64,000 bases of DNA, taken from Rhizobium sp. Q54. Its GTDB lineage: Bacteria; Pseudomonadota; Alphaproteobacteria; Rhizobiales; Beijerinckiaceae. The stretch covers positions 62,001-126,000 of the forward strand of contig CAMCUC010000001.1 of assembly GCA_945878875.1 (NCBI GenBank). The letters are read 5' to 3'. The position numbers and the translations under genes are program-made. Shown one piece after another: positions 7,673-20,456 of this stretch; position 1 is the stretch's first letter; the number at the start of each line of letters is the position of its first letter. The notes under the pieces were generated by a model. The model ran no database searches. It was not told the DNA's origin and saw only the letters and a list, made by a program, of their open reading frames with translations.

Positions 7673-8176
7673 TCAGCGCAACAGCGCCAGCGCTTCCATC
7701 ATGCCCCACACCAGCAGCCCGCACAGCGGCGGCAGGATGAGGGAAGAGCCCAGCCGAATAGCCACGAAGCGATACCCCATCAGCGGCGCCTCATAAATCA
7801 TGACGCGGTGGAACGCGAACACCGACCATGCGGTCAGAAACGCCACCACCTGCGGAAAGCCAGCGCCGGACGCCAGCAGCACGACGACGATGGGGAACGA
7901 CACGATGGGACCGGCGGGCGTGAAGCCGCCAAAGACAGTGGCCAGCAGAATGCCGCGCATGCCGCTCTCATAGCCAATCGCGTGGCCAATCACGTCGGCG
8001 GGCGCGATCTTTGAGATAAACCCTGCGGCCATAAAGGCGAAGGCGATGCGCGGCAGCACTTCGACAAAACGCAAAATGGCATTGCGAAAGGCGCCGCGCA
8101 GCAGCGTTGGCGAACGCCGCCAGGCGATGATCGCCAGCACCAGCGCCATCGAACCCATAATGAGAATCGCAGTCAT
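7673..8176 (-). CDS. Permease-like membrane protein (half of a PF03773/ArsP_1-like fold)
   Basis: Multi-TM; FGGFTPAGPIVSFPIVVVLLASGAGFPQVVAFLTAWSVF parallels FMGFGAVTPGGPMISFP-type loop of the adjacent ORF; 4-nt overlap with it. Confidence 0.55.
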   Translation of the reverse strand: MTAILIMGSMALVLAIIAWRRSPTLLRGAFRNAILRFVEVLPRIAFAFMAAGFISKIAPADVIGHAIGYESGMRGILLATVFGGFTPAGPIVSFPIVVVLLASGAGFPQVVAFLTAWSVFAFHRVMIYEAPLMGYRFVAIRLGSSLILPPLCGLLVWGMMEALALLR

Positions 8177-8799
8177 GATTTGGCCTGCGGGTCTTTCGTG
8201 TTGTCTTCCTCTTTTGCTTCGGCCAGCGCGATGAGGCGCTTTTCTTCCTCGTTGCGCGGCAGATAATCAGCTACCAATGCGGCCACAAACGGCAATGGCA
8301 GCGACCCGATGAAACGCATCAAAGTATATTCAACGCCCAGGAGCGGGATTTCCCAGATCAGAATGCGCTGGAAGCCAAGCGTTTCCCAAGACGTCAGATA
8401 AGCGATCACGGTGCTGCGCGATGCGCCAGCCTTCGACAGGGACGAGACGAGCGGGAACGAAATCATCGGCCCGCCGGGCGTCACAGCGCCGATGCCCGTC
8501 GCCAGAGCCACGCCTTTGAAGCCCGCCTTCTCGCCCAGCCATTTGGCGATGAACGCGCGCGGCACAAGCGCGGTGACGAGCGCGGCCACAAAGAACGCGA
8601 TCGCCATTTTCGGCGCCAGATCGAGAAACATGAACACGTCTTTATAGAGGCTGTCGGCCACCGCATCGGCGCCCGCGATCCACCAGCACAGCAGGCCCGA
8701 AACGACGGCGAGGCCCGCCAATACGAGAACGGACGTGTCGAAGAGCGCAGCGCGCAGATCGAGGCGATCTCGCCGGAAGCTCTTCGTTTCAACCGTCAT
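8173..8799 (-). CDS. Permease-like membrane protein (other half)
   Basis: Multi-TM; GIGAVTPGGPMISFPLVSSLSKAGASRSTVIAYLTSWETLGFQRILIWEIPLLG. Confidence 0.55.
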   Translation of the reverse strand: MTVETKSFRRDRLDLRAALFDTSVLVLAGLAVVSGLLCWWIAGADAVADSLYKDVFMFLDLAPKMAIAFFVAALVTALVPRAFIAKWLGEKAGFKGVALATGIGAVTPGGPMISFPLVSSLSKAGASRSTVIAYLTSWETLGFQRILIWEIPLLGVEYTLMRFIGSLPLPFVAALVADYLPRNEEEKRLIALAEAKEEDNTKDPQAKS

Positions 8800-8824: not shown

Positions 8825-9340
8825 TCACGCGCGCAGCGCAGTCAGCATGGCGCTGATGTAATCGGCGCCGCTGGCGATGACGAGCATACGAGCAAACGGG
8901 CGCAGATGGGTCATGGAGTCCGAAATCTGCGCATCGGTCGTCTCCGGCCCAGGCACCACAAGCGCCACAAGCGATTTGTTGTGCAAGGCGCAGGCGTCGG
9001 CGATCAGCGACACGGCGCGCGCACCCTCGCCCGCGCTGGTGACGACGACCACGAAATCGCTGCTGGCGACTTCCTCCACAAGATCGTTGGCGGCGCCGGC
9101 CAGATCCTTCAGCCATGCCTTCAGGCCCTCGCCCGTCGTTCCCGGCGCACTGTCCGTGGAAAACGAGAGCGATGTGAAAAACTTCGCGCCGTTCCAAGGT
9201 TCGCGCGACACTTCATCGACGAGGCTGGCGCTCAACGCGTCAAGCGCGACGACCTTTACGTCGCGGCGCTTTGAATTGGGATATTGCACCCGATAGCTGG
9301 ATTCGCGGGCGGTGGTGACGCGGGCGGTTTCGCTTTGCAT
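8825..9340 (-). CDS. Hypothetical protein, Rossmann-like, 171 aa
   Basis: Intact ORF between oxygenase and permease genes on the same strand; alternating beta/alpha pattern SSDFVVVVTSAGEGARAVSLIADACALHNKSLVALVVPG. Confidence 0.65.
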   Translation of the reverse strand: MQSETARVTTARESSYRVQYPNSKRRDVKVVALDALSASLVDEVSREPWNGAKFFTSLSFSTDSAPGTTGEGLKAWLKDLAGAANDLVEEVASSDFVVVVTSAGEGARAVSLIADACALHNKSLVALVVPGPETTDAQISDSMTHLRPFARMLVIASGADYISAMLTALRA

Positions 9341-9409: not shown

Positions 9410-10696
9410 TTAGACCGAAGTCTGGCGGACGCCCTTTTTGGCGATGAGCGCTTCCTTGGCGCCCTCGGTGTAGCTGGCGGCGCGCGGCAGCAGCAGCGCG
9501 GCCTGGCGCACCTTGTGGTGCTCCGGGTTCACGCCGGGCGGGATCACACCCTTCTCGACCAGCGCCTTGGCGGCGCGCATCAGGCGGTGACGCGCCATGA
9601 TGATGCCGTTGTCGGTGCCGACAAGATTTTCCTTCGTGCGGTCGCAGATCGGACCCATGCTTTCCTGAAGCGAAGCGTCCTGCATGCCAATGCCTTCGAT
9701 GCCGCTGAAGGTACGCCCGGCCTTCTGGGCCTCGCGGTTCATCAGGTAATCGTTGTCCTTGTTGGCGAGCGGACGATAGGTGCCGGGCACGTATTTCACG
9801 TGAATGCCCTTGCCGTCCTTCATGGCGGCGACTTCGCCGTCGGTCAGCGGACGGGTGGGGTGGTAGTCATAGCTCCACGCCCAGCAGCTCTCGTCGTCGA
9901 TCGGAACCCAGAAATGGCCGTGCATCGGATGGTCGCCGCGCGGGGGAACGCCTGTGTAGCAGGGCATGACCCACGGCGTGATGCGCCAGTAATACTGCTC
10001 GTCCTCGGCGTTGCGACGCGCGCCAATCAAAAGGCCGCCGTCGCTCTCGGCGATTTCGAACACCGGCGACAGATCGCCAAGGTTGTACTTGTTGCCGGCT
10101 GCGCCCTTGAACAGCGGATCGTTGGCAAGATCGCCGCGATGCAGGAACGACACATGGCTCGAATCGATGCCGCCTTCCATCGCCTGCAACCAGTTGGATT
10201 CCTGAATGCGCTTGCTGGAGAACGTCTGGTTCAGCGGAACGGTGCAGAACTCGAACTCGGGTTCGGGGGGCTGCTTTTCCGGCGGACCCATATAGGTCCA
10301 GAGTACGCCGCCCTTCTCGATCAGCGGATAGGCCTTGAGCTTTACCTTCTTGGCGTAGCCTGATTCTGCGGGCTCGGAGGGCACGTCGACGCACTGGCCG
10401 TTCACGTCGAACTTCCAGCCGTGATAGGGGCAGCGCAGGCCGCATTCCTCGTTGCGGGCAAACCACAGCGACACGCCGCGATGGGCGCAGAATTCGTCGA
10501 TCAGGCCAAGGCGGCCTTCCGAATCGCGGAACGCCAGCAGGCGCTCGCCCAAAAGCTTCACGCGCACAGGCGCACAATCGGGCTCGGGCAGCTCTTCGCT
10601 GAGCAGCGCCGGCATCCAATAGCAACGAAACAAGTCGCCCATCGGCGTGCCCGGACCCGTCTGGGTCAGGTATTCGTTCTGTTCTTTTTTCAACAT
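9410..10696 (-). CDS. Aromatic ring-hydroxylating Rieske oxygenase, phthalate 4,5-dioxygenase-like alpha subunit
   Basis: MLKKEQNEYLTQTGPGTPMGDLFRCYWMPALL; Rieske CAHRG...CPYHGW; mononuclear iron motif region GGIDSSHVSFLH. Start placed at 10696 rather than the longer ORF start. Confidence 0.9.
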   Translation of the reverse strand: MLKKEQNEYLTQTGPGTPMGDLFRCYWMPALLSEELPEPDCAPVRVKLLGERLLAFRDSEGRLGLIDEFCAHRGVSLWFARNEECGLRCPYHGWKFDVNGQCVDVPSEPAESGYAKKVKLKAYPLIEKGGVLWTYMGPPEKQPPEPEFEFCTVPLNQTFSSKRIQESNWLQAMEGGIDSSHVSFLHRGDLANDPLFKGAAGNKYNLGDLSPVFEIAESDGGLLIGARRNAEDEQYYWRITPWVMPCYTGVPPRGDHPMHGHFWVPIDDESCWAWSYDYHPTRPLTDGEVAAMKDGKGIHVKYVPGTYRPLANKDNDYLMNREAQKAGRTFSGIEGIGMQDASLQESMGPICDRTKENLVGTDNGIIMARHRLMRAAKALVEKGVIPPGVNPEHHKVRQAALLLPRAASYTEGAKEALIAKKGVRQTSV

Positions 10697-10812
10697 GGCT
10701 TTCGCTCCCTGAAACTCAGCCCAAAACCTTTGCAGCAGACCCCTGAAGATACCGCGCCGGAGCGCGTTGACCAGCGAGCCGGGGCTTGCTAAATCACCTT
10801 CGGGTTCCTGCA

Positions 10813-10894: not shown

Positions 10895-11200
10895 ATGTCC
10901 AAGATTGAACTGTGCAAGACCGGCGACGTCGATGAGGGCGCAGCCATCAAGGTTGAAACGGGCGATCTGAGCCTGGCGGTGTTCAACCTGAACGGCGCTT
11001 TCTATGTTCTGGACGACACCTGTTCGCATGGCCCGGGATCGCTTTCGGAAGGCCCGATCCACGGCGACGTGATCGAGTGCGATTTTCACAACGGCTCGTT
11101 CAACATCAAGACCGGCGAAGTCGTCGATCCGCCGTGCATGATTCCGCAAAAGACCTACAAGGTGATCGTCGAGAACGACACCGTGTTTATCGAAGAGTGA
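10895..11200 (+). CDS. Rieske [2Fe-2S] ferredoxin of a non-heme iron oxygenase
   Basis: DDTCSHGPGSLSEGPIHGDVIECDFHNGSFNIKTGEV: CxH...CxxH Rieske ligands. Confidence 0.92.
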   Translation: MSKIELCKTGDVDEGAAIKVETGDLSLAVFNLNGAFYVLDDTCSHGPGSLSEGPIHGDVIECDFHNGSFNIKTGEVVDPPCMIPQKTYKVIVENDTVFIEE

Positions 11201-11202
11201 AC

Positions 11203-12066
11203 ATGAGCGCGGCGCGCGAATCAGGACAAGAGCTTGCAACAGCGGAAACCGCTGGTGCGCAGGCTCCTCTTGACCCCGTGCGCGCCGAAAGAAACGGCCC
11301 GCAACGGCTCTCGTCCGTAGCCACAGCGGTGCGCCTGCTGAAAACCTTCAGCGAGGGCGAGGCGGAGATCGGCGTCACCACTTTGTCCAAGCGCCTTGGC
11401 GTGGCCAAAAGCACGGTCTACCGTCTTGCCTCGACTTTGGTCGCCGAGGGCATGCTTGAGCAGAACCGCGAGAACGACAAATACCGGCTCGGGCTGGCGC
11501 TGTTTGGGCTTGGCGCTCTGGTGCGCCAGCGCATGAACGTCTCGACGGAGGCGCGCCCGCACATCTTCGCGCTGCGCGAGGCCACCAACGAGACCGTGCA
11601 TCTGGCCGTGCCCGAGGGCGCGCAGATCATTTATGTCTATGATCTGGAAAGCACGCAGGCGATCCGCCAGCGCGCCAACCTTGGCGAGCGTAAACCAGCC
11701 TTTTGTTCTGCCGAGGGGCGCGCGATGCTGGCCTTCGCCGATTCTCAAACGGTGGACCTCGTCATCGCCGCCGGGCTGGTGGCGCGCACGCCGCGCACGG
11801 ACGTTAATCCCCGCAATCTTGTCCGCGCGCTTGAGCAAGTGCGCGCGCAAGGGTATGCGATGGAGGATGAGCAAAGCGAGATGGGCATGCGCTCGCTGGC
11901 GGCGCCGATTCGCGATTCTGAAGGTCGCGTCGTCGCGGCCGTGGGCATCGCCGGCCCGATGCAGCGCCTGAGCGACGAGGCCATTGCGCGCTTTGCGCCT
12001 CTGGTCGTCAACACGGCCAACGTCATTTCCGCCCGTCTGGGATTTCGATCCCCGGCGGCTTTCTAA
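11203..12066 (+). CDS. IclR-family transcriptional regulator
   Basis: RLSSVATAVRLLKTFSEGEAEIGVTTLSKRLGVAKSTVYRLASTLVAEGMLEQ wHTH and IclR effector domain. Confidence 0.93.
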   Translation: MSAARESGQELATAETAGAQAPLDPVRAERNGPQRLSSVATAVRLLKTFSEGEAEIGVTTLSKRLGVAKSTVYRLASTLVAEGMLEQNRENDKYRLGLALFGLGALVRQRMNVSTEARPHIFALREATNETVHLAVPEGAQIIYVYDLESTQAIRQRANLGERKPAFCSAEGRAMLAFADSQTVDLVIAAGLVARTPRTDVNPRNLVRALEQVRAQGYAMEDEQSEMGMRSLAAPIRDSEGRVVAAVGIAGPMQRLSDEAIARFAPLVVNTANVISARLGFRSPAAF

Positions 12067-12099: not shown

Positions 12100-13110
12100 A
12101 TGGCAAAGATCACTATCATCAAGTCCGACATCGTCTACGATTGCGTTTCTGACACGATTACGCGCGCAGCGACGCGTGCGGGACTGGGCTTTCCCTATGA
12201 ATGCAACGTCGGCGAATGCGGCAATTGCCGCTTTGAGCTGATTGAGGGCGAAGTCTCGTACCTGCGTGAAAATCCGCCCGCGATTACCGAGCGCGACGCC
12301 GAGCGCAAACGATATCTGGGCTGCCAGGCCGTGCCGCATGGCGATTGCACGATCAAAGTGCCGCTGCGCGATCATTACAAGAGCAAGCACCTGCCGAAAA
12401 AGACACGCGGGGTGCTGACGGAAGCCATCGACATTACGCACGACATTCGCGAGTTCCGCTTCAAGCTGTCCGAGCCCGCGAAGTTTCTGGCCGGTCAATA
12501 CGGCCTCATCTCCGCGCCTGGCGTTGAAGGCGCGCGCGCCTATTCCATGAGCAACACGGGCGAGACCGGCGAGGAATGGCATTTCCAGATTCGCCGCGTG
12601 CCCAACGGCCGCGCCACCGGCTCGCTGTTTGACGGCATGAAGATCGGCGACAGCCTCGATCTCGACGGCCCCTATGGCATGGCCTATCTGCGCGAGGACG
12701 CCCCGCGCGACATCCTGTGCCTTGGCGGCGGCTCGGGCCTCTCGCCCATGGTGTCGATCTCGCGCGCAGCCGCCCACAGCGCTGCGCTTGCCGGCCAAAA
12801 TATCTATTTCGTTTATGGCGGGCGCACGCCGCGCGACATTTGCGGCGAGGAATTTCTGCGCGAACTGCCCGGCTTTGGCGAGCGCATCCATTACACGCCG
12901 GTGATCTCGATGGTGGACGATCCCACGTCAGCGGGATGGACCGGCAAGACCGGCTTTGTGCATGACGTGGCCGAAGAAATGTTCGGCGAAAAGCTCGCCA
13001 ATTTTGAAGTGTACTTTGCCGGCCCGCCGCTGATGGCTCAATCGGTGACGAAAATGCTCATCAAGGCGAAAGTGCCCGGCTCGCAGATGCATTTCGACCA
13101 GTTCTATTGA
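12100..13110 (+). CDS. Oxygenase reductase: N-terminal plant-type 2Fe-2S plus FAD/NAD(P) domain
   Basis: GFPYECNVGECGNCRFELIEGE...RYLGCQA 2Fe-2S motif; ARAYSMSNT flavin and LCLGGGSGLSPMVSI NAD-binding motifs. Confidence 0.92.
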   Translation: MAKITIIKSDIVYDCVSDTITRAATRAGLGFPYECNVGECGNCRFELIEGEVSYLRENPPAITERDAERKRYLGCQAVPHGDCTIKVPLRDHYKSKHLPKKTRGVLTEAIDITHDIREFRFKLSEPAKFLAGQYGLISAPGVEGARAYSMSNTGETGEEWHFQIRRVPNGRATGSLFDGMKIGDSLDLDGPYGMAYLREDAPRDILCLGGGSGLSPMVSISRAAAHSAALAGQNIYFVYGGRTPRDICGEEFLRELPGFGERIHYTPVISMVDDPTSAGWTGKTGFVHDVAEEMFGEKLANFEVYFAGPPLMAQSVTKMLIKAKVPGSQMHFDQFY

Positions 13111-13172: not shown

Positions 13173-14159
13173 ATGTCCAAACTGAATATGACTTTGGCCT
13201 GCTGGAATTATGATCGCACGCGCGCGATTCAGGACGGCTCGGTCAAGCCCGACGGCATCGACATCAATTATCTCGATCTGCCAGTGGAGGAGACCTTCTT
13301 CCGCATGGCCCGCCATCAGGAATTCGACGCGTCAGAAATGTCGCTGTCGTCCTACACCGTGTCGTTGCATCGCGAGAAGCCGCCGTTCATTGCGATCCCG
13401 GTATTTCCCTCGCGCTTCTTTCGCCATTCCTGCATTTATGTGAACGCAAAATCGGGCATTCGCGAACCCAAAGATTTGATAGGCAAGAAGATCGGCGTGC
13501 CCGAATTCCAGATGACGGCGCCGGTGTGGATTCGCGGCATCTTGTCGGATCATTACGGCGTGCCGGTGGACAGCGTTCACTATTACACCGGTGGCGAGGA
13601 AGAGCCGGGCCGCCCGGAGAAGATGAAGCTCGACCTGCCGTCCCACATCAAGGTGACGCCGATTGGGCCTGAGCAGACGCTGGCGCAAATGCTGCGCGAT
13701 GGCGAAATCGACGCCTTCCACACCGCCCGCAAGCCCTCGACCTACGACGGCGTGAACGTGAAGCGGCTGTTTGAAGATTATCGCCCGGTTGAGCTGGATT
13801 ATTACCGCAAGACGAAAATCTTCCCGATGATGCACACGGTCGCGATCCGCCGCGACGTGTACGAAGCCAATCGCTGGGTCGCGCAATCGCTGCTCAAAGC
13901 GTTCGTTGAAGCCAAGCGCCGCACCTATGAAGATTTGAAGGAAACGGCGGCGCTGAAATCCATGGTGCCGTGGCTGGTGGCCGACTTCGAGGAAGCGCAG
14001 CGCGAAATGGGCGCCGATTACTGGTCATACGGGCTTGAGCCCAATTACACCCAGCTTGAGACGTTCCTGCGCTATCATTTCGAGTGCGGACTCTCGAAGC
14101 GGCTCTTGAAGCCAGAAGAGCTGTTTGCGCCCGAGACGCTGGAGTCTTTCAAGATTTGA
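13173..14159 (+). CDS. 4,5-dihydroxyphthalate decarboxylase-like / ABC substrate-binding-fold protein
   Basis: MSKLNMTLACWNYDRTRAIQDGSVKPDGIDINYLDLPVEETFFRMARHQEFDASEMSLSSY; family shared by Pht5 and SBP-fold proteins. Confidence 0.75.
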   Translation: MSKLNMTLACWNYDRTRAIQDGSVKPDGIDINYLDLPVEETFFRMARHQEFDASEMSLSSYTVSLHREKPPFIAIPVFPSRFFRHSCIYVNAKSGIREPKDLIGKKIGVPEFQMTAPVWIRGILSDHYGVPVDSVHYYTGGEEEPGRPEKMKLDLPSHIKVTPIGPEQTLAQMLRDGEIDAFHTARKPSTYDGVNVKRLFEDYRPVELDYYRKTKIFPMMHTVAIRRDVYEANRWVAQSLLKAFVEAKRRTYEDLKETAALKSMVPWLVADFEEAQREMGADYWSYGLEPNYTQLETFLRYHFECGLSKRLLKPEELFAPETLESFKI

Positions 14160-14344: not shown

Positions 14345-15463
14345 TCAAGCAACCTTGGGCGGCAGGGTTTCGAGTTCCTGCGCGTAGGCGGCGTCCATTT
14401 GCGGAACAAGGCCCTGCTTGCCGAGTTCTGTCGAGAACAGGTCGCGCACGAGCTTCGTCTCGTCGGCGTAATCGATCTGGTCGCCGCCGATGCGACGGCT
14501 GATCCACGCCTTGGGCACGCCCTGCGCGTTACGGATCGACACGACTTCATGCTTGAACGCCAGATAGCGAGCAGGCGTTGCGCCGGTGTTGAAGTGCTGG
14601 TGGAACCACATGTTCGGCGGCACGATCATGGTGCCCACTTCCCAATCGTAGCGCTTGGGCTCTTCGCCTTCCGCCCACATCAGCGAATAGCCTTCGCCGG
14701 ACAGGATGATGACGTGCGCTCCGGGGCCGTGGCAATGGCCCTTCTTGTAGGTGCCTACCGGGAATTGCGAAATGTGGCTGTTCATCGAGCCCTTCGCCAT
14801 GTTGAAGCGGATGTGACCGCCGCCGGCGCCGCGCTCCTTGGCCGAGATCAGCGGCAGGTTCACCGCGTCCGGCACGAAGTTCGTCTCCAGCAGAAGGCCC
14901 TTCTGCTCGCCCTTGTTGGAGAAGTAATCGGGCTCGCCCGCAAAGCGCGACTTGAAATCGTGCGCGGTGTTGAAGACGAAGCTGGTGTCTTCATACAGGT
15001 TCATCACCGGGGGCGCGTTGGTGACGGACACGAAGCGCGCAGCCTCGGAGCCCGAGCCATTGAAGTGCTGGTGCCAGGCGTTCAGCGGAATGGCGAACAG
15101 CGCGCCGGCTTTCCATTCGAACGTGATCTTCTGGCCCGCGTCGTTCCACACGCTGGTGGAGCCGCGGCCTTCAAGCACGAGAACCATTTCTTCAAAAAGC
15201 TGGCGCCGCGGCTCAAGCTTCTTGCCCGGCGCGATTTCGCACACGTAGCAATCGTTCGAGGTGCGCGAGGCTTCGTGGTTGATGTAGACGCCCTTGCCGC
15301 CGCGACGGGCCCACGGCTTCAACTCAACGGTGCGCAGGTTCTGCACGTAAAGAGCGGGGATGATGTCCAGACCCTCATTGCGCACCCAGCGCAGATAAGG
15401 CGTGTCCTTTTCGGTCGCGAATTTCTTGGCGAGATCGTCCGATACAATTGCGTCCTTGGCCAT
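14345..15463 (-). CDS. Bicupin protein (cupin copy 1)
   Basis: Two cupin-like barrels: LFEEMVLVLEGRGSTSVWND...NAWHQHFN and GHCHGPGAHVIILSGEGYSLMW...NMWFHQHFN. Confidence 0.85.
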   Translation of the reverse strand: MAKDAIVSDDLAKKFATEKDTPYLRWVRNEGLDIIPALYVQNLRTVELKPWARRGGKGVYINHEASRTSNDCYVCEIAPGKKLEPRRQLFEEMVLVLEGRGSTSVWNDAGQKITFEWKAGALFAIPLNAWHQHFNGSGSEAARFVSVTNAPPVMNLYEDTSFVFNTAHDFKSRFAGEPDYFSNKGEQKGLLLETNFVPDAVNLPLISAKERGAGGGHIRFNMAKGSMNSHISQFPVGTYKKGHCHGPGAHVIILSGEGYSLMWAEGEEPKRYDWEVGTMIVPPNMWFHQHFNTGATPARYLAFKHEVVSIRNAQGVPKAWISRRIGGDQIDYADETKLVRDLFSTELGKQGLVPQMDAAYAQELETLPPKVA

Positions 15464-15624
15464 CGTTTTCTCCGGTTGGTTTTTGTTGAGCCGGCCCTTG
15501 GGAGGCCGGCATGATTTCGGGGCGTGGCCCGGGAAGACTCAGGCCCTGCATTTCAGGGCCTGTTCTAAGACCTTTGGCCAGTGTTTCGCAAGCGTTGAGG
15601 CTTAACGCAAAAAGCGCCTGCGGC

Positions 15625-17376
15625 TTATTTGTGCTCGTGCCCGTGCGAATGGCTGTGTCCATGCGCGTGATCGTGAGAATGGCCGTGTGCATGGCCGTGG
15701 CTCGCGCCCTCTTCCTGCTCGCGATGGTGAATAATCTCTTTCGCACGCGGGCCGCGCGGGTCTTCATTGAAGACAAGCGACTTGATCGTGACTGGAACTG
15801 TGAACGAGGGCACGCGCACCTTGCCAAGGTCGATGTAATCAAAGTCCATCAGCATCACGCCGTCGATGACGAGGATCTCGCTGGCGACCCCGCAATCCTC
15901 GCGGATGACTGCTCCAAGCGTCTGCGCCACGTCGCCGTCGAGCATGACGTAAATCGGCTTTCCGGCGGCGATGCGATCAGCCAGCCCCTCGACCACGCCT
16001 TTCGCAAAGCCAAGCACGCGATCATAGGCGGGCGGGCCGCTCCAGCGCAGAGCCAGCGCGATTTCCGACTCTGCGTCCTCGACCTCAAACGCCTTGCGAT
16101 GGCTGCGGATCGCGGCGCCAAGCGCCTTGGCGTCCACCTCATCTCCAGCCTCAAACGGAGGCTGAAGCACTTGCAGGTTACGACGCGGCAACAGCGCGCC
16201 AGGGTTTGAAATATAGCTGGTGTTGCCCGACAGCTGCACGCTGTATTCGGACGCGCCCAACGCCGTGGCGCGGATGCATTCGCGCGCGGGCAGAAGCGCC
16301 CACGGGAAGCGGCCAGCCGCCACTTTGCGAGCAATCGCGGCGCCCAGACGCTTGCCCATGTCGCCAAAATCGCGCGGCTCGCGGTCGTAGACATATTCGG
16401 CGACGCCGCCCGAAAACATCATGCCGCCGAGATCGCCAAAATCCATCAGCGGATCGGTGAGGTAGAGATGCTCGACGTCGTGCGGAATCGGGCGCGTCAC
16501 CAGCGCATTCACCAGCGTTTCGGCCATACCGTCGGCCACCTTGTCGAGATCGGCCTCCGAAACAGAATCGCCAAGGCGCCAGTCAAAACCGGCGCGCCGC
16601 GCATGGGTTCGGCCAGCCGGATCAAGCCGCACGATCTTGCCGCCTTCCGTTACCTGCAGACGCCCGCCAATGTGCACGGCGGCTGTGGCGATGACTTTGC
16701 CGCCCTCGATCAGGCCGAGCTTGGTGGTGCCGCCGCCAATGTCGACGTTGAGCACGCGCCGCCCTGTATCGAGCGAGGCTTGAGCGGCGCCGGAACCGTA
16801 AGCGGCCAGCATGGATTCCATGTGGTGGCCTGCGGTGGCGCAAACGAAATCGCCTCCAGCTTCGGCAACCAGCGCCGAGATGGATTGCGCGTTCTCGCGT
16901 CGCAACGCCTCGCCGGTGAGAATCACGGCGCCGGTGTCCACGTCTTCCTTGTTAAGGCCAGCCTCGCGGTAAGCGTCGGCGATGATGGCGCGCAGCTTCT
17001 CGTCGTCGATCCGCGTTTCGCTGGAATAGGGCGTGAGCGAGACCGGAGACAGATAGAGCTGATCGCGCGAGACGACGTAATAGCGGCTGGTGAGGTCTTC
17101 CGAGAGACGGCGTAGATGGATTTTCGAGAAAATGATCTGCGTGCCCGATGAGCCGATGTCGATGCCAACGCTCTTGAGCGTGACATTATCCTGCTGCCAG
17201 AGCGGATTGTCCTCAATCGGGCCGTCGTACTGAAACTCGTCGTGCTCGTGATCAGCGTCTTCGTCATGCTCGTGAAAAAGCACCTGGCCGGCGTGCTCGG
17301 TCATGGTGTGGGCGGCGACGGCCTTGATGGCGTCCTCGATTTTTGTTCCCGATTTCTTGTCGTTATCGCTGGCCAT
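15625..17376 (-). CDS. EutA-like reactivating-factor family ASKHA ATPase (copy 1) with N- and C-terminal His-rich segments
   Basis: KSVGIDIGSSGTQIIFSKIHLRRL, VLNVDIGGGTTKLGLIEGGKV, MMFSGGVAEYVY; termini HEHDEDADHEHDE and HGHAHGHSHDHAHGHSHSHGHEHK. Confidence 0.85.
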   Translation of the reverse strand: MASDNDKKSGTKIEDAIKAVAAHTMTEHAGQVLFHEHDEDADHEHDEFQYDGPIEDNPLWQQDNVTLKSVGIDIGSSGTQIIFSKIHLRRLSEDLTSRYYVVSRDQLYLSPVSLTPYSSETRIDDEKLRAIIADAYREAGLNKEDVDTGAVILTGEALRRENAQSISALVAEAGGDFVCATAGHHMESMLAAYGSGAAQASLDTGRRVLNVDIGGGTTKLGLIEGGKVIATAAVHIGGRLQVTEGGKIVRLDPAGRTHARRAGFDWRLGDSVSEADLDKVADGMAETLVNALVTRPIPHDVEHLYLTDPLMDFGDLGGMMFSGGVAEYVYDREPRDFGDMGKRLGAAIARKVAAGRFPWALLPARECIRATALGASEYSVQLSGNTSYISNPGALLPRRNLQVLQPPFEAGDEVDAKALGAAIRSHRKAFEVEDAESEIALALRWSGPPAYDRVLGFAKGVVEGLADRIAAGKPIYVMLDGDVAQTLGAVIREDCGVASEILVIDGVMLMDFDYIDLGKVRVPSFTVPVTIKSLVFNEDPRGPRAKEIIHHREQEEGASHGHAHGHSHDHAHGHSHSHGHEHK

Positions 17377-17480
17377 TATTCGCCCTTCTGTCGTTCAAGC
17401 GCTGTCGTCCCGTTGCGTCGGCGTTCCGGCATGTGAATGCGGCGCGACGCTTGGCTTCCACGTCGCCCACCATCCGCGCG

Positions 17481-17542
17481 CTGTCAACTGTTTGGCGCAG
17501 ATTCCTGCTCTCTCAAGTTTTCCTGCGCTCTCAAGTTGACAG
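17481..17542. promoter_or_regulatory. Candidate regulatory repeat cluster in the divergent EutA-1/cupin-2 promoter
   Basis: CTGTCAACT ... AGTTGACAG inverted repeat flanking two tandem 18-mers TTCCTG(C/C)TCTCTCAAGTT / TTCCTGCGCTCTCAAGTT (one mismatch). Confidence 0.45.
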
Positions 17543-17638
17543 GGCACGGCCTTTGGCTGATTTACCAAGGCAAGCGCCGTCTGGCGCCGTAAGGAACACG
17601 CAGGCGTCAAGCCGCGACCGCCCCACATGGAGGATACA

Positions 17639-18868
17639 ATGCCGCACGACGCAAAGGACGGAGTCCACTGGCACGAGCCCGCTGGCACGAAAAAGGCCGG
17701 CTTCGGCGAGTTCAAGAAGCAGCCGACGCCCTATGACGCCTGGATGGAATCGGAAGGCCTGCCGGTTTTCCGCGACATCGGCATCTCCAACGTCGCCAAT
17801 CTGCCGCTCGTTCCGTGGAAGCGCACGGGCGGGCGCGGCCATTTCATCCAGCTCATCGGCACCGAGACCAAATGGGGCTGCTATGTGGTGGAAGTGCCCG
17901 GCGCCGGCGCCCTGCACCCTGAAAAGCACATGTACGAGGAAATCTACCTCGTCGTGGAAGGCCGCGGCACGACGGAAGTCTGGCAGGAAGGCGACACGAA
18001 GAAGCACGTGTTTGAATGGCAGAAGGGCTCGATGTTCTCGATCCCGATGAACGCATGGCACCGCATCGTCAATGCTACGTCAAGCCCAAGCCTGCTGCTG
18101 GCCGGCACGACCGCGCCCAACGTGATGAACATGATCAACAACCCGGAAGCGGTGATGAACAACCCGTTCGTCTTCCGCGACCGCTTCAGCGGCGCCGACG
18201 ATTTCTTCAAGCCCAACGACGAGATCGAGCCCGATCCGGTGCGCGGCCTGGCCATGCGCAAGACGAACTTCATCCCCGACGTCGTCAATTGCGACCTGCC
18301 GCTCGATAACCGCCGTTCGGTCGGCTATCGCCGCGTCGAGCCGTTCATGACCAACAACCAGTTCTATTACTGGGTCGCCCAGCACGAGAACGGCCGCTAT
18401 TCGAAAGCGCATGCGCACACGTCCGCCGCCGTGCTCGTCTGCCTCAAGGGCAAGGGCTACACCTATTCGTGGCCCGAGCATTGTGGCCCGACGCCCTGGA
18501 AAGACGGCTTTGGCGATCAGGTCCGCCGTCTTGATTACGGCCCGTATGGCATCGTCAGCGCAGCCCCCGGCGGCGCCCGCTGGTATCACCAGCACTTCAG
18601 CGTCTCCAACGACGACTTCCGTTTGTCGGCGTGGTTTGGTCCCCACAACCCGGGCCGCGACCCCGGCGCGCCTGGCCAGAAGCACACCGATTACACCGCC
18701 ATCGACCTCGACAAGGGCGGCACCGCCATCCCCTATTGGATGGAAGATCCGTTCCTGCGCGAGGAGTTCGAGGCCACGTTGAAGAAGAACAACGTGCCCT
18801 GCCGCATGGACCCCGCCTGGTACGTGCCGCCGAACGCCAACGACGAAAAGCGCGACACTGTGGTGTGA
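17639..18868 (+). CDS. Bicupin protein (cupin copy 2)
   Basis: Paralog of 14345-15463: YEEIYLVVEGRGTTEVW, NAWHRIVNA, KTNFIPDVVNCDLPL, RWYHQHFS; ATG at 17639 preceded by GGAGG. Confidence 0.85.
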   Translation: MPHDAKDGVHWHEPAGTKKAGFGEFKKQPTPYDAWMESEGLPVFRDIGISNVANLPLVPWKRTGGRGHFIQLIGTETKWGCYVVEVPGAGALHPEKHMYEEIYLVVEGRGTTEVWQEGDTKKHVFEWQKGSMFSIPMNAWHRIVNATSSPSLLLAGTTAPNVMNMINNPEAVMNNPFVFRDRFSGADDFFKPNDEIEPDPVRGLAMRKTNFIPDVVNCDLPLDNRRSVGYRRVEPFMTNNQFYYWVAQHENGRYSKAHAHTSAAVLVCLKGKGYTYSWPEHCGPTPWKDGFGDQVRRLDYGPYGIVSAAPGGARWYHQHFSVSNDDFRLSAWFGPHNPGRDPGAPGQKHTDYTAIDLDKGGTAIPYWMEDPFLREEFEATLKKNNVPCRMDPAWYVPPNANDEKRDTVV

Positions 18869-18874
18869 TGAGTC

Positions 18875-18906
18875 AGCCCCTCTCCGTTCGCGGAGAGGGG
18901 CTTTTT
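18875..18906 (+). terminator. Rho-independent terminator after cupin-2
   Basis: AGCCCCTCTCCG-TTCG-CGGAGAGGGGCTTTTT. Confidence 0.85.
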
Positions 18907-18935
18907 ATTAAATTGCAAAAAACGTCGGGGACGAG

Positions 18936-20456
18936 ATGAACGATTCAGCGGAACAGGGCGGGCGCGTCTTCTTTTCAAACGTGCGGCGCAGCCTTGAAGA
19001 GGAAGACGAGATCAATCTGGTGAGCGTGGGCGTCGATATCGGCTCGTCCACCTCGCACCTCGTCTTCTCGCGCCTGCTGCTGGAGCGCCTCGACAATCGC
19101 TATGTCGTGAGCAAGCGCGAAGTCTTCCATGAATCCGACGTGCTGCTGACGCCCTACGCCGACGACATGAGCATCGACGCCAAAAAGCTCGGCGCCTTCA
19201 TCGACCTGCAATACGAGGCCGCGGGCATCGATCCCGCCTCCATCGACACCGGCGCGCTGATCCTGACCGGGGTCGCCGTGCGCCGCTCCAACGCGCGCGC
19301 CATCGGCGATCTGTTTGCCGCGCAAGCTGGCAAGTTCGTCTCGGTCTCGGCTGGCGACGGCCTTGAGACGACGCTGGCCGCTTTTGGCTCGGGCGCCGCC
19401 GCGCGCTCGATCCGCGACGCCTCGCGCGTTATGAACATCGACATCGGCGGCGGCACGTCCAAGATCGCCGTGTGCGAGCGTGGCGAAGTGGTGGATATGA
19501 CCGCCATCGACATTGGCGCCCGCATCATCTCGTTCGATCACGAAGGGCGCATCACTCGGCTTGAGGAAGCCGGGCGCAGCTTTGCAAAAGAATGCGGAAT
19601 GGATCTGGAGCTGGGCTCGATCATCAGCGAAGACCAACGCGCCGCTATGGTGGAAGCTATGGCGAACCGCCTGTTCGAGACGATCTCACAAAAGACGCTC
19701 GGGCCCCAAACAGCCGGACTGCTGCGGCTGGAGCCGTTGAAGAATGCGCGCAAGCCTGATTCCGTGACCTTCTCGGGCGGCGTGTCGGAATATGTTTACG
19801 GCTTGCAAACAAAGGGGTTTGGCGATCTGGGTCCGCGTCTGGCCAAAGCTATGCGCACGCGGATTGAAACTTGGGGCGCGCCAATCGAGAAGCCCGATCA
19901 GGGCATTCGCGCTACCGTTGTGGGCGCCTCGCAATACACCATTCAGGTCAGCGGCTCGACGGTGTATGTGGCGCCGCTCGATATCCTGCCGCTGCGCAAC
20001 GTCCCGGTGGTGGCGCCCGATCTGCCGCTCTCCGACGAAACGCTGGACGTGGAAGCGATTGCGCAAGCCATCCGCGCGGCGCTGCGCCGTCTTGATTTGC
20101 ATGAGGGCTTGCAGGCCGTGGCACTGTGCTATCGCTGGGGCGGCTCTGCCATGTATCGCCGCCTCGACGATCTGTGCAAAGGCGTCATGCTGGGCCTGTC
20201 TACGCATCTGGCGAACGGCTTCCCGCTCATTCTGGTTGGCGACGGCGATATCGGCGGGCTTGTGGGCATTCATCTGCGCGAGGAAAGCAAGCTCACAAAT
20301 CCTGTCGTCTCGATTGACGGCATCGTGCTGAAGGAGTTCGACTTCATCGACATCGGCGCAATGCTTGAAACATCGGGCGCCGTGCCGGTCGTCATCAAGT
20401 CGCTGGTGTTCCCCACGAGTGCGGCGCTTGGCCGGGTCGAGGCGACGACGATCTAG
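18936..20456 (+). CDS. EutA-like reactivating-factor family ASKHA ATPase (copy 2, no His-rich tails)
   Basis: VSVGVDIGSSTSHLVFSRLLLERL, VMNIDIGGGTSKIAVCERGEV, VTFSGGVSEYVYGLQTKGFGDLG. Confidence 0.87.
   Translation: MNDSAEQGGRVFFSNVRRSLEEEDEINLVSVGVDIGSSTSHLVFSRLLLERLDNRYVVSKREVFHESDVLLTPYADDMSIDAKKLGAFIDLQYEAAGIDPASIDTGALILTGVAVRRSNARAIGDLFAAQAGKFVSVSAGDGLETTLAAFGSGAAARSIRDASRVMNIDIGGGTSKIAVCERGEVVDMTAIDIGARIISFDHEGRITRLEEAGRSFAKECGMDLELGSIISEDQRAAMVEAMANRLFETISQKTLGPQTAGLLRLEPLKNARKPDSVTFSGGVSEYVYGLQTKGFGDLGPRLAKAMRTRIETWGAPIEKPDQGIRATVVGASQYTIQVSGSTVYVAPLDILPLRNVPVVAPDLPLSDETLDVEAIAQAIRAALRRLDLHEGLQAVALCYRWGGSAMYRRLDDLCKGVMLGLSTHLANGFPLILVGDGDIGGLVGIHLREESKLTNPVVSIDGIVLKEFDFIDIGAMLETSGAVPVVIKSLVFPTSAALGRVEATTI

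Follow-up and report, generated by a model that had tools for sequence, protein, structure and literature searches.

Paired bicupin and EutA-like ATPase genes beside an aromatic oxygenase locus of Rhizobium sp. Q54, with a putative role in servicing cupin metal centres

Two gene pairs next to an aromatic oxygenase locus

The window, a 64,000-nucleotide stretch of Rhizobium sp. Q54 contig CAMCUC010000001.1, contains two pairs of genes, each consisting of a bicupin and an ATPase that resembles EutA. On the minus strand are bicupin 1 (cupin1; 372 aa; 14345..15463), which has two Pfam Cupin_2 matches, and EutA-like ATPase 1 (EutA1; 583 aa; 15625..17376; Pfam EutA, 8.8e-115). On the plus strand are bicupin 2 (cupin2; 413 aa; 17627..18868; Pfam Cupin_2) and EutA-like ATPase 2 (EutA2; 506 aa; 18936..20456; Pfam EutA, 1.1e-116). 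All four open reading frames are intact and stop-free and occur at the positions given by the sequence-only reading of this DNA, and both cupins pass the Pfam Cupin_2 cut-off. The start of bicupin 2 is at 17627, with an alternative ATG at 17639. By the ORF coordinates, EutA1 and bicupin 2 diverge from an intergenic region at 17377..17626, in which no consensus promoter was found. The order along the window is cupin1(-), EutA1(-), cupin2(+), EutA2(+). This is not the mirror image that had been proposed: reading outward from the centre, the minus strand carries EutA1 followed by cupin1, whereas the plus strand carries cupin2 followed by EutA2. The motifs that had been listed as shared within each protein type are present, except that EutA2 has VGVDIGSS, not VGIDIGSS.

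The paralogues are only 34% (cupins) and 38% (EutAs) identical, which indicates that the duplication is old. A recent duplication is ruled out by these identities, by the existence of two old clades, and by the occurrence of separate pairs elsewhere. Two other genomes (G696 and G599) have two cupin/EutA pairs that are ~20 kb apart. The module is best explained as two old enzyme-plus-helper pairs, each evolving separately. A strong 12-bp hairpin followed by a T-run is located between cupin2 and EutA2 (18875-18902, plus strand) and could conceivably keep EutA2 expression below that of the cupin. The gap between these two genes is only ~34-39 bp in loci L017 and L028, so the hairpin is probably not conserved.

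Pfam matches confirmed that the module adjoins an aromatic oxygenase locus. The Rieske oxygenase gene (9410..10699, minus strand; Pfam Rieske and LigXa_C) encodes a LigXa-like C-terminal domain, and its cluster recurs in 25 of the related loci described below. It is followed on the plus strand by genes for a small Rieske-type ferredoxin (10895..11200), recognised from its sequence and with homologues in related loci, an IclR-type regulator (11203..12066), likewise recognised from sequence and with homologues in 19 loci, a BenC-like oxygenase reductase with Fer2-FAD-NAD architecture (12100..13110; homologues in 10 loci), and a protein with a periplasmic-binding fold (13173..14159; homologues in 25 loci). 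The last of these has no evident signal peptide and may be a cytoplasmic enzyme akin to 4,5-dihydroxyphthalate decarboxylase. On the other side of the Rieske gene, the sequence reveals a 171-aa protein of unknown function (8825..9340, minus strand), relatives of which adjoin Rieske genes in other loci of both Proteobacteria and Actinomycetota. Beyond it, two half-size permease genes (7673-8176 and 8173-8799, minus strand) have profile matches to the ArsP_1 / SO_0444 Cu-Zn efflux relatives.

A EutA branch with cupin neighbours

In the genome of Rhizobium sp. Q54 (2.84 Mb in 91 contigs, 92.8% complete), four sites carry EutA genes, counted as EutA1 to EutA4, and cupin genes adjoin each of them. 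EutA3, on contig C38, comes after two single-domain cupins and before fdhD. The surrounding region (L007:5325-14827) encodes an amidohydrolase, the two single cupins, EutA3 and FdhD, followed by a zinc-type ABC transporter; a COG0523 GTPase bearing a His-rich stretch is also encoded nearby. EutA4 is split across the ends of contigs C75 and C10, with overlapping fragments. It is followed by a bicupin, and its other flank carries a Rieske oxygenase, the reductase of that oxygenase and a P450. Three extra bicupins are found on contigs C5 and C70, with no EutA in the stretch read (L122, 9023-10144, and L123); two of them adjoin tripartite tricarboxylate transporter genes.

In both window proteins the EutA domain spans the full length (profile positions 3-475), and neither reaches the NCBIfam equivalog cut-off for EutA, with best scores of 326 and 329 bits against 598 bits. 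Phylogenetic analysis placed the cupin-linked EutAs in a clade of their own (support 100/97), outside the EutAs linked to eutBC. This clade splits into an EutA1/EutA3 group and an EutA2 group, and the canonical EutAs show long branches. The ATP motifs are kept in altered form, with DIGSS in place of DIGTT and DIGGGT-x-K in place of DIGGGT-x-N. The EutA-like proteins thus resemble EutA (PF06277) in their whole-length domain match, ATP-binding motifs and ASKHA fold, and presumably in a chaperone-like action on a partner enzyme. They differ from it in their separate clade, their changed motifs and, for the EutA1 type, their His-rich tails, and also in their partner genes, which are cupins rather than eutBC.

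Relatives were collected by searching genome contigs with a EutA alignment, which returned at least 516, and the best 80 loci were analysed by detecting their genes with a six-frame stop-to-stop search. The loci were found with cupin-linked seeds, and the counts from them therefore cover this subfamily and not all PF06277 proteins. They span Alpha-, Beta- and Gammaproteobacteria, Actinomycetota and Acidobacteria. Neither eutB nor eutC was found near the EutA-like gene in any of these best 80 of at least 516 relatives (0/80), and eutB was not found anywhere in the genome of Rhizobium sp. Q54, which agrees with the earlier observation that no eutB or eutC accompanies the module. By comparison, all eight control EutAs (L106-L110, L121, L012 and L013) are linked to eutB or eutBC. 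A search of the Rhizobium sp. Q54 genome for diol dehydratase (PF02286) gave no match, but this carries no weight since the control genomes were also silent. At four proteobacterial loci (L111, L112, L113 and L119) eutB occurs without eutA; eutC is present in three of these, the fourth reaches a contig edge, and all EutA proteins of these genomes are on other contigs.

These data bear on the idea that the proteins are canonical EutAs serving a B12-dependent ethanolamine ammonia-lyase or diol dehydratase encoded elsewhere, with the cupins as incidental neighbours. Databases do annotate them as EutA. However, eutB is absent from the Rhizobium sp. Q54 genome and from 39 of the 49 genomes with a EutA-like gene, which refutes the idea for most genomes; in the remaining ten, eutB and EutA are on different contigs, as at L111, L112, L113 and L119. 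Together with the low equivalog scores and the separate clade, this makes such a role extremely improbable. Canonical ethanolamine use by the module is ruled out by the lack of eutB and the separate clade.

The cupin family of the window was found within 8 kb in 61 of the 80 loci and directly adjacent to the EutA-like gene in 40. Of the 43 loci that have 5 kb or more of sequence on either side, 37 contain it. Many of the loci that lack a cupin are short contigs, and in L085 a bicupin lies just beyond 8 kb. The clear exceptions are L033, L035, L036, L045 and L051, where EutA1 stands alone in a long contig; each of these five genomes encodes bicupins elsewhere. Cupin1 is highly conserved, with 72-99% identity across phyla, whereas EutA1 is ~54-68% identical outside close relatives. 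No EutA-cupin fusion proteins were found. One locus of the EutA1 type, with a NicO gene, comes from a MAG titled Bordetella parapertussis (L038); the locus is environmental in character, and the MAG has probably been assigned to the wrong species.

The neighbours can be compared in a larger set of 85 EutA-like genes, each with 2.5 kb of sequence on either side. In this set the pairing is specific to type: EutA1 with cupin1 in 34 cases, EutA2 with cupin2 or cupin4 in 18, EutA1 with other cupins in eight, and EutA3 with cupin3 in one. Where EutA1 stands beside cupin2, the arrangement is the divergent layout of the window. Rieske oxygenase, reductase, IclR and substrate-binding-like proteins recur in cupin-EutA clusters, which would be expected if the EutA-like protein serviced another enzyme of the pathway, such as the Rieske oxygenase or its reductase, and the cupins merely lay nearby. 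Within 2.5 kb, however, a cupin was found for 61 of the 85 genes and a Rieske oxygenase for only 13, and loci such as L011, L115, L130 and L132 have a cupin and a EutA-like gene with no Rieske gene in the stretch read. Service to another pathway enzyme is thus quite unlikely.

We also surveyed an order-wide sample of 348 genomes from 135 genera, with thresholds of E<=1e-60 for the bicupin and E<=1e-40 for EutA. The bicupin was detected in seven genomes and EutA in eight, and all seven bicupin genomes are among the eight; the EutA of the eighth (G187) is linked to eutB. If the two families were independent, the chance of such agreement would be 4e-13 (with the Rhizobium sp. Q54 genome left out), although co-occurrence by itself is no functional test because physical linkage and shared transfer contribute to it. 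A phylum-wide tally of PF06277 over 399 genomes was uninformative, as other actin-fold proteins match at weak E-values. The pairing of EutA-like and bicupin genes is well supported. The sequence-only reading had proposed a repurposed reactivase partnered with a bicupin, an idea that linked eutBC in most homologous loci, or the lack of a shared cupin-EutA neighbourhood elsewhere, would have overturned. Neither is the case, and at the genomic level the proposal is borne out by conservation over several phyla, by the absence of eutBC from all 80 homologous loci and by the co-occurrence across the 348 genomes.

Bicupins, histidine-rich tails and metal-transport genes

Cupin1 has N- and C-terminal cupin domains, each with the motif HQHFN. 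The candidate metal ligands of the C-terminal domain are H243, H245 and H288 (plus H250 and H290); among 70 relatives, H243, H245, H288 and H290 are invariant and H250 is nearly so. The conserved C-domain histidines of cupin2 are H262, H264, H321 and H323. The AF2 model of cupin1 is a confident bicupin (pLDDT 87.6), which Foldseek matches best to MncA, oxalate decarboxylase, plant vicilins and gentisate 1,2-dioxygenase. MncA and oxalate decarboxylase are metal-dependent bicupins and the top matches (E about 1e-17), but they are only 12-16% identical to cupin1, with a TM of about 0.5 over the chain. To our knowledge, neither has a partner ATPase. Cupin1 matched 3bu7 with E=1.6e-14, and its HxH and distal His align with the C-domain of gentisate 1,2-dioxygenase. 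Like gentisate and 5-aminosalicylate 1,2-dioxygenases, it is a bicupin with a C-terminal HxH...H and weak profile similarity. It differs from them in having HQHFN in both domains and a partner ATPase gene, and it falls below the equivalog cut-offs for the named bicupin dioxygenases (37.4 against 650 bits and 18.1 against 442 bits).

The window EutA1 consists of an ASKHA core preceded by an N-terminal D-H-x-H-D segment and followed by a 50-residue C-terminal tail. The last 50 residues contain 14 histidines, compared to 1.7% histidine in the core. In the AF2 model the core is confident, with an ASKHA fold, and the tails (1-50 and 535-583) are disordered. EutA1 proteins as a group share the D-H-x-H-D segment and have a median of 16 C-terminal histidines, with at least six in 56 of 67. 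No His-rich tails were found in EutA2 or canonical EutA proteins, so a tail cannot be a universal means of delivering metal. HypB, UreE and CooJ are His-tailed nickel chaperones, which EutA1 resembles in its flexible His-rich terminal tail; nickel genes are linked at a minority of the loci, as described below. Unlike these chaperones, it is an ASKHA ATPase rather than a SIMIBI GTPase or a UreE fold, and its putative client is a cupin.

Genes for metal transport accompany a subset of the modules. A NicO/HoxN Ni/Co permease was found near EutA or the cupin in 15 of 100 stretches read, often less than 1 kb from EutA and in several different arrangements; NikR was found in six of these stretches and a CobW-type GTPase in nine. 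Searching 49 genomes with the same profile gave nine NicO genes near modules where 0.25 would be expected, an enrichment of ~35-fold among loci that are mostly betaproteobacterial and for that reason not fully independent. NicO is concentrated in Betaproteobacteria and is missing from most loci, including the cluster in the window and the actinobacterial loci examined; one NicO of the Rhizobium sp. Q54 genome is away from this cluster. No NikR operator could be placed upstream of the cupins in a search upstream of cupin and EutA genes. One-mismatch NikR boxes were found only near HoxN/NikR (L010:14607) and near NicO (L093:11830). The ArsP_1-type half-size permease pair of the window (7673-8799) also occurs in L016, L047, L124, L127 and L129, never together with NicO. 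In clusters of this form it is a candidate metal transporter, and our guess would be that it moves the same metal as NicO.

The His-rich tails and the linked Ni/Co-transport and NikR genes could also mean that the EutA-like protein is a metal-responsive sensor or a storage protein with no catalytic tie to the cupin. The lack of tails in the EutA2 type, the conserved ATP motifs and the match of one EutA type to each cupin type speak against this, and we regard it as very unlikely.

A candidate ATP-driven helper of bicupins

Our preferred explanation, to which we assign a probability of roughly 0.6, is that a EutA-type ATPase has been repurposed to load or reactivate the metal centre of the cupin with which it is paired, itself a putative oxygenase. 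We consider it likely that the EutA-like protein acts on the cupin in some way, and somewhat more probable than otherwise that this action takes the form of metal servicing. Each bicupin would depend on a divalent metal and most likely oxygenate an aromatic-acid intermediate, in a pathway that may begin with the adjacent Rieske oxygenase. The EutA-like proteins would be ASKHA ATPases, each dedicated to its own cupin. Canonical EutA strips damaged cofactor from ethanolamine ammonia-lyase at the expense of ATP (PMC5821096), and by analogy the EutA-like protein would bind its cupin and open it with ATP, so that metal could enter, or so that a metal that had become oxidised or blocked by product could be swapped. 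The replacement metal may be carried on the His-rich tails in proteins of the EutA1 type. The contact between the EutA-like protein and the cupin, the ATP-driven servicing of a metal, the oxygenase chemistry and the choice of nickel are all inferred.

The sequence-only reading had suggested an ATP-driven repair of metal or cofactor. Indirect support for such a repair comes from the ASKHA ATP motifs, the His tails and the pattern of invariant histidines in the cupins, as well as from the linked Ni/Co permease, NikR and CobW genes. Nickel is our tentative first guess for the metal, perhaps delivered by the linked NicO/HoxN permease with the NikR and CobW-type proteins; iron, manganese or cobalt are also possible. 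A precedent for a nickel-using cupin oxygenase is the quercetinase QueD, which is described without a EutA-like partner and whose in vitro reconstitution failed with precipitation (PMC4416304).

The extra bicupins without an adjacent EutA in the Rhizobium sp. Q54 genome (L122 and L123) count against metal servicing by a dedicated ATPase, as do the lack of any EutA-cupin fusion, the absence of tails from EutA2 and the absence of NicO from most loci. The same gene pairs might instead encode a single ATP-consuming enzyme, in which the ASKHA subunit phosphorylates the substrate or drives a conformational change in every turnover. Both kinases and the HgdC-type activator belong to the ASKHA proteins, and the activator is also a Foldseek match; the type-specific pairing of EutA and cupin and the intact ATP motifs would fit such an enzyme. 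By far the closest relatives of the EutA-like proteins, however, are not kinases but EutA reactivases (Pfam 8.8e-115). In several clusters cupins outnumber EutAs, and EutA1 is sometimes encoded far from any cupin gene, an arrangement more in keeping with a helper than with a fixed subunit. The His tails would have no role. A single enzyme of this kind is therefore unlikely.

We found nothing relevant in the open-access literature linking EutA or a reactivase with cupins, Rieske oxygenases, nickel or NikR. The apparent novelty is a EutA-family reactivase with a putative new client; were the metal role demonstrated, it would amount to a new class. Beyond the individual pairs, we can only tentatively propose a new class of ATP-driven helpers, in which ASKHA reactivases of EutA stock, each tuned to its bicupin, insert or replace the (nickel) metal of bicupin oxygenases and are widespread in aromatic-degrading bacteria. 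Being small, soluble and available in matched types, the pairs lend themselves to direct tests in vitro.

This overlooked branch of EutA occurs in many soil and freshwater bacteria, together with bicupins in aromatic-breakdown clusters. The clade is labelled "ethanolamine ammonia-lyase reactivating factor" in databases and is probably misnamed, as its partners in these genomes are cupins. If the mechanism holds, cells pay ATP so that a simple cupin metal site stays loaded or functional, and we know of no such ATP-driven upkeep of a metal site in the cupin superfamily. The linked nickel genes would then indicate that aerobic breakdown of aromatics includes new nickel enzymes, and reactivase chaperones would extend from B12 enzymes to mononuclear non-haem metal enzymes.
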